Made by a program: the position numbers and the translations under genes. A stretch of 64,000 nt of DNA, taken from Muricea muricata. Taxonomy: Eukaryota > Cnidaria > Anthozoa > Malacalcyonacea > Plexauridae. The DNA lies in NCBI GenBank assembly GCA_963855995.1, contig OY979718.1, positions 33,830,559 through 33,894,558 on the forward strand, in the 5' to 3' direction. A model generated the notes under the pieces. That model saw nothing but the letters and a program-made list of their open reading frames with translations, ran no database searches and was not told the DNA's origin. Below, piece after piece: positions 36,025 through 60,110 of this stretch; within the stretch, counting starts at the first letter, position 1, and the number at the start of each line of letters is the position of its first letter.

Positions 36025-36146
36025 CTAACAAGCGTCACACGTATATTTGCAGTTTGCTTTCATGTACACCACGTACGTCGAATTATTTTTACAGTATCCA
36101 CGTGCTTTCCATTTAATACAGTCAGAAACGTCAGATTTATCAGTAC
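36025..36146 (-). CDS. Astacin gene terminal exon: third ShKT domain and stop
   Basis: The acceptor TTTTTTTGCAG|GTACTG opens a 122 bp exon whose first Cys codon is split with the previous exon. It encodes SDVSDCIKWKARGYC and KANCKYTCDAC followed directly by TAG. The protein thus ends on the last ShKT cysteine, as is common for terminal ShKT domains. Confidence 0.9.

Positions 36147-60110: not shown

Follow-up and report, generated by a model that had tools for sequence, protein, structure and literature searches.

The stretch of DNA analyzed here (the window) comprises 64,000 nucleotides (nt) of contig OY979718.1 from the anthozoan Muricea muricata. Its minus strand carries one gene model of nine exons, running from position 60110 to position 36025 and totaling 1331 nt with the stop codon, which is predicted to encode an astacin zinc metalloprotease followed by three C-terminal ShKT domains. 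The outer edges of the model agree with the coordinates of an earlier sequence-only reading; 60110 is the first base past an AG, and 36025 is the final base of the stop codon TAG. Exon 1 (59952..60110) is taken as part of the pro-domain and has an acceptor on its 5' side. Exon 2 (56100..56285) holds the end of the pro-domain with the motif FEGDI, a basic RQKR near the pro/mature border, and the start of the mature catalytic domain, whose N-terminal part and first cysteine follow in exon 3 (52885..53011). Two further cysteines and the HEI that opens the zinc motif lie in exon 4 (51630..51721), the remainder of that motif, GHAMGLWHEQSRPDRD, in exon 5 (51040..51123), and the Met-turn SVMHY, the fourth cysteine of the domain and a closing Pro/Thr-rich linker in exon 6 (48469..48747). 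Exon 7 (41677..41841; 165 nt) encodes the first ShKT domain and closes with another Pro/Thr-rich linker, exon 8 (36329..36445; 117 nt) encodes the second ShKT domain, and exon 9 (36025..36146) encodes the third together with the stop codon. Past the stop, the first hexamer resembling a polyadenylation signal is an AATAAA on the same strand at 35683..35688, which is a consensus match only.

The eight introns measure 3666, 3088, 1163, 506, 2292, 6627, 5231, and 182 nt, and every one of them has GT-AG borders. Their phases, in order, are 1, 1, 2, 1, 1, 1, 1, and 1, compatible on both sides in all eight cases; the sole phase-2 intron separates exons 3 and 4, and the inferred intron ahead of exon 1 is also phase 1. 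The codons split by the introns (GGA, TCC, GGT, GGT, GCA, GTT, GGA, and TGT) include no stop. The nine minus-strand exons with GT..AG borders and matching phases that the sequence-only reading had described are thus recovered. Its count of eight of nine introns in phase 1 or 2 needs amending, as nine exons enclose eight introns, all of them in phase 1 or 2 (seven and one, respectively) with no stop created, and adding the inferred intron before exon 1 gives nine of nine. Donors match AGGTAAGT at 5-7 of 8 positions, with a mean of 6.0 compared to 3.59 for 1351 background GTs from the same strand and region. For the set of nine acceptors (the eight internal ones and that preceding exon 1), mean pyrimidine content over the 14 bases ahead of the AG is 70%, compared to 47% for 1285 background AGs, and all nine have C or T at position -3 (44% in the background). 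In total, none of the 17 splice sites (8 donors and 9 acceptors) is missing. None of 100,000 random splice-site sets reached the observed donor or acceptor mean, in a control that is partly circular because the sites were picked by reading frame and, among alternatives, by their likeness to consensus.

Astacins carry a zinc motif of the form HExxHxxGxxHExxR and a Met-turn of the form SxMHY. Both are found here, the zinc motif complete as HEIGHAMGLWHEQSRPDRD across exons 4 and 5 (HEI plus the stretch in exon 5), where a phase-1 intron splits it within the codon GGT, and the Met-turn SVMHY in exon 6. The catalytic domain has four cysteines, distributed over exons 3, 4, and 6. Against the Pfam Astacin family (cut-off 22.5 bits), exon 4 matches profile positions 57-86 (E 4.2e-9, 36.8 bits), exon 5 positions 88-113 (E 1.9e-10, 41.2 bits), and exon 6 positions 118-188 (E 1.3e-17, 64.5 bits). 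Pfam searches with whole frames covered the three minus-strand frames of 47001-60999 and one of three for 36003-47000. The best solved structure for exon 6 is PDB 3lqb (E 2e-9), described in PMC8191133 as a zebrafish hatching enzyme. In exon 2, FEGDI fits FXGDI, which PMC9848320 presents as the sole pro-segment motif common to animal astacins.

Additional support comes from ranking every open fragment of 20 codons or more in the six frames of the whole window (2123 in all) against profiles of bacterial astacins. The first profile was built from 80 bacterial loci found with exon 6, of which one was excluded and 77 of the remaining 79 yielded an extracted domain. Its top four fragments were exons 6, 5, 4, and 3 (E 1.5e-20, 1.5e-13, 2.3e-5, and 0.78), which share the minus strand and follow the right order, and the next fragments had E 3.4 and 3.9. 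With an N-terminally extended profile of 43 sequences, the top four were exons 5, 4, 2, and 3, with exon 2 ranked third of 2123 (E 0.22), exon 3 at E 0.35, and the next fragment at 1.1. Fragments of adjacent exons overlapped on the profiles until they were trimmed to the exon borders, after which exons 3-6 fall at positions 9-39, 45-73, 75-100, and 104-182 of the bacterial profile and exons 2-5 at 11-40, 44-76, 81-109, and 111-135 of the extended one, so that trimmed neighbors abut without overlap. The proposed exons 2 and 3 are supported by rank, order, and motif jointly and by no single score.

In the C-terminal tail, exons 8 and 9 match Pfam ShK (PF01549; cut-off 20.9 bits) with E 3.5e-5 (24.7 bits) and E 8.8e-9 (36.2 bits), respectively, and exon 7 has no match to this family above the gathering score of 20.9. 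Among solved structures, exon 9 weakly matches aurelin (PDB 2lg4, E 0.013), and exon 8 has weak matches only, the best being 2mcr, a putative zinc metalloproteinase peptide (E 0.68). A profile built from exons 8 and 9 ranked the exon 7 fragment third of 2123, behind the two training exons, with E 0.25 compared to 0.62 for the next fragment. The third ShKT domain has six cysteines with the standard end spacing. The first (41729-41841) and second (36329-36445) also have six, with the sixth beside the fourth and the usual last one absent, unlike standard ShKT domains. This doubled cysteine is common to the first (YCCSTCK) and second (NCCGTCK) domains and absent in the third, a distribution that would suit duplication of exon 7 or 8. 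Two cysteine patterns, one strict and one looser, both missed exon 9, since the split codon TGT supplies the first cysteine of that exon; the strict pattern matched only exon 8, with no matches in 300 shuffles of all fragments. The Lys of the Lys-Tyr dyad, named in PMC6409789 for the potassium-channel blocking ShK toxins, is seen in none of the three domains, as judged by eye on the exon translations at its usual position. The predicted place of exons 7-9 at the end of a protease speaks against a stand-alone ShK peptide toxin.

At the 5' end, no ATG occurs in the open frame leading into exon 1, and a T-rich tract ending in AG precedes the exon; a further 5' exon is therefore needed. Exon 1 itself appears to be coding, with a codon-use score of 0.20 over 52 codons that is higher than in any of 490 open control windows equal in length (mean -0.05, standard deviation 0.09), although these windows overlap and so are not independent. 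The codon training set consisted of exons 2-9, a seven-transmembrane (7TM) receptor gene elsewhere in the window and transposon open reading frames (ORFs), with exon 1 excluded. Several of the trained exons score only 0.02-0.05, so the codon measure is weak for short exons. Candidates for the missing exon were sought among ATG starts with phase-1 donors within 39 codons, and none of the 25 best joins a convincing hydrophobic core with a good donor. The hydrophobic residues just ahead of exon 1 can be explained by the T-rich acceptor tract. The start of the gene probably lies in sequence that was not recognized or beyond the window, and the astacin domain itself is covered. The earlier description of a complete astacin domain with three ShKT domains accordingly stands for the domains, while the start codon and signal peptide are absent from the model.

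Several points weigh against reading these exons as one astacin-ShKT gene. The model was read from genomic sequence only, and the homology searches were made per exon or fragment. Searched singly in Pfam, exons 1, 2, 3, and 7 gave nothing above family cut-offs, the top family for exon 3 being unrelated and sub-threshold, and exons 2, 3, and 7, each used as a PDB query, returned no relevant match. Exon 6 is favored in the bacterial profile because the loci were found using it. After trimming to the exon borders, exon 3 (E 0.16 with the bacterial profile and 0.12 with the extended one), exon 2 (E 0.42), and exon 7 with the exon 8/9 profile (E 0.066) are not significant, and the per-domain E of the exon 7 fragment, 0.65 compared to 0.71 for the next, leaves a narrow margin. 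Exon 7 does not match the strict cysteine pattern, and the looser one was written after reading exon 7; it picks out two fragments of the 2123, those of exons 7 and 8, and gave a single match when the 85 fragments containing at least five cysteines were shuffled 100 times. No convincing signal-peptide exon was found in 60130-64000, the 3.9 kilobases (kb) upstream in the window. One spliced gene is nonetheless favored because the exons occupy abutting profile positions on one strand with good splice sites and matching phases, and because the linker leads into the first cysteine of exon 7 and exon 1 is coding-like. We put the probability that this is a single minus-strand gene for a secreted astacin zinc metalloprotease with three C-terminal ShKT domains at roughly 0.92.

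The predicted architecture resembles known systems. Like Hydra HAS-1 to HAS-11 as described in PMC8191133, the gene would combine a pro-segment, an astacin domain bearing both the zinc motif and the Met-turn, and a C-terminal ShKT region, and like HAS-7 in the same account it has a Pro/Thr-rich stretch linking the catalytic and ShKT domains. C-terminal ShKT domains are reported there to be typical for cnidarian astacins; most Hydra astacins have one or two, several have none and HAS-11 has six, so that three domains set the present gene apart from most of them. PMC6409789 gives one to three ShKT domains as the general range in astacins of cnidarians and nematodes. An astacin followed by ShKT domains is likewise the arrangement reported for Nematostella, nematodes, and molluscs (PMC9848320, PMC6409789), and PMC9848320 lists ShKT-astacins in nematodes, flatworms, arthropods, priapulids, molluscs, cnidarians, lower chordates, and others. 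The hatching enzymes 3lqb and 3vtg are the best solved-structure matches of exon 6, and unlike the gene here their chains (199 and 200 residues) would contain the catalytic domain only, judging from their length. A scan of viral contigs gave two IMG/VR contigs with an astacin domain (L081:1530-2159 and L082 at about 1640-2200), which have no bearing on the present finding, and the astacin ORF of L081 (209 amino acids) is little beyond a lone domain.

The exon structure of the tail also has a counterpart, in that each ShK domain of the Nematostella trypsins is reported to lie in a single exon, which was taken there as support for exon shuffling (PMC6767649). One ShKT domain per exon is likewise found in exons 7 and 8 here, on a protease that is an astacin and not a trypsin. 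Both exons are symmetric in phase (1-1), as the sequence-only reading had proposed for the ShKT exons, and shuffling of these exons is consistent with the model. The same symmetry is found in exons 1, 2, 5, and 6, that is, in six of the eight non-terminal exons altogether, and therefore does not single out the ShKT tail. The literature searched yielded no paper joining astacin, intron, phase 1, and exon shuffling.

By analogy with the family, a further 5' exon would supply the signal peptide, and the pro-segment would hold the zymogen inactive, the aspartate of FXGDI blocking the zinc. Cleavage at or near RQKR by a furin-like enzyme would then release the active protease, and the ShKT tail may act as a binding module that places the enzyme on partners, substrate, or matrix. 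We infer each of these steps from the family. ShKT-astacin expression is described in PMC9848320 as mostly in barrier epithelia or the digestive tract, and HAS-7 is reported to cleave Wnt3 (PMC8191133, PMC9848320). The most likely role, on these comparisons, would be proteolysis outside the cell, either on an epithelium or within the gut, or the processing of a secreted signal as by Hydra HAS-7. It is unlikely, though the best placed of the alternatives, that the gene is as modeled and serves chiefly to make a venom protein of nematocysts or glands rather than an enzyme of digestion or development. Surveys of jellyfish and snail venoms are among the papers on astacin, ShKT, and cnidarians or venom, and PMC9848320 notes that coupling a protease to toxin-like domains may present a host with a challenge; against this, the Hydra astacins whose function those accounts describe act in development, and sequence alone cannot decide.

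Intron 6 bears on whether the protease and its tail belong together. This intron, which separates exons 6 and 7, is 6.6 kb long and contains a reverse-transcriptase ORF of 643 amino acids (42383..44311; PF00078), and the frame read beyond the exon 6 donor meets a stop after 13 codons. Both observations would fit two separate transcripts, one for an astacin that stops within exon 6 or past it and the other, made of exons 7-9, for a ShKT protein. This arrangement is very improbable, as a good phase-1 donor ends exon 6 and a matching phase-1 acceptor opens exon 7, exon 7 has no start codon ahead of its ShKT domain, the Pro/Thr-rich linker runs to the first ShKT cysteine, and fusion of astacin to ShKT is a usual architecture in the published accounts cited above. 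Still less probable is a pseudogene, a decayed astacin-ShKT copy in a transposon-rich region, which could draw on the transposon ORFs in introns 1, 2, 6, and 7, the start codon that was not found and the non-standard sixth cysteine of the first two ShKT domains, but which is at odds with nine exons free of stops and frame breaks, the full set of splice sites, and complete zinc and Met-turn motifs.

The other transposon-related features of the favored single gene also lie in its introns. Intron 1 contains two reverse-transcriptase ORFs in one frame with a stop between them (57318..58739), and intron 2 a Mutator-like transposase ORF (53784..55526; PF20700, E 2.7e-69); like the ORF in intron 6, these are on the gene's own strand. 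Intron 7 contains a large inverted repeat (38817..40672; about 1.86 kb) with arms 91-92% alike and one THAP-domain ORF per arm, which may represent two transposon-derived copies placed head to head. Elsewhere in the window, a 7TM receptor ORF of 336 amino acids (PF00001) occupies 22667-23674, with a partial tandem copy 2 kb off (25590-25984) that is 81% alike. Two related tandem arrays with units of about 22 nt lie roughly 7 kb apart at 9720-10038 and 16870-17275, and a 232-nt palindrome at 28081-28312 matches its reverse complement at 82% and has open frames on each strand. Scanning the window gave no tRNAs and no Rfam families at gathering score.

In addition, a near-perfect (TAT)75.7 microsatellite of about 226 nt (41852..42077) lies 10 nt upstream of exon 7. 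At 57% pyrimidine, the acceptor of this exon ties with that of exon 4 for the lowest value among the nine. It is a long shot that the repeat replaces the usual branch-point region of exon 7 and that its length, if it varies between individuals, tunes inclusion of the first ShKT domain. As exon 7 is symmetric, skipping it would keep the frame and give two ShKT domains instead of three. If this were true, the number of ShKT domains on the protease could differ between individuals without any coding change.

In total, the gene predicted here is an ordinary further member of the well-described ShKT-astacin group, and nothing more is shown. It shows that an animal gene of many exons can be pieced together one exon at a time from raw sequence for which ORF calling yields scraps, with separate support for most parts of the gene model.
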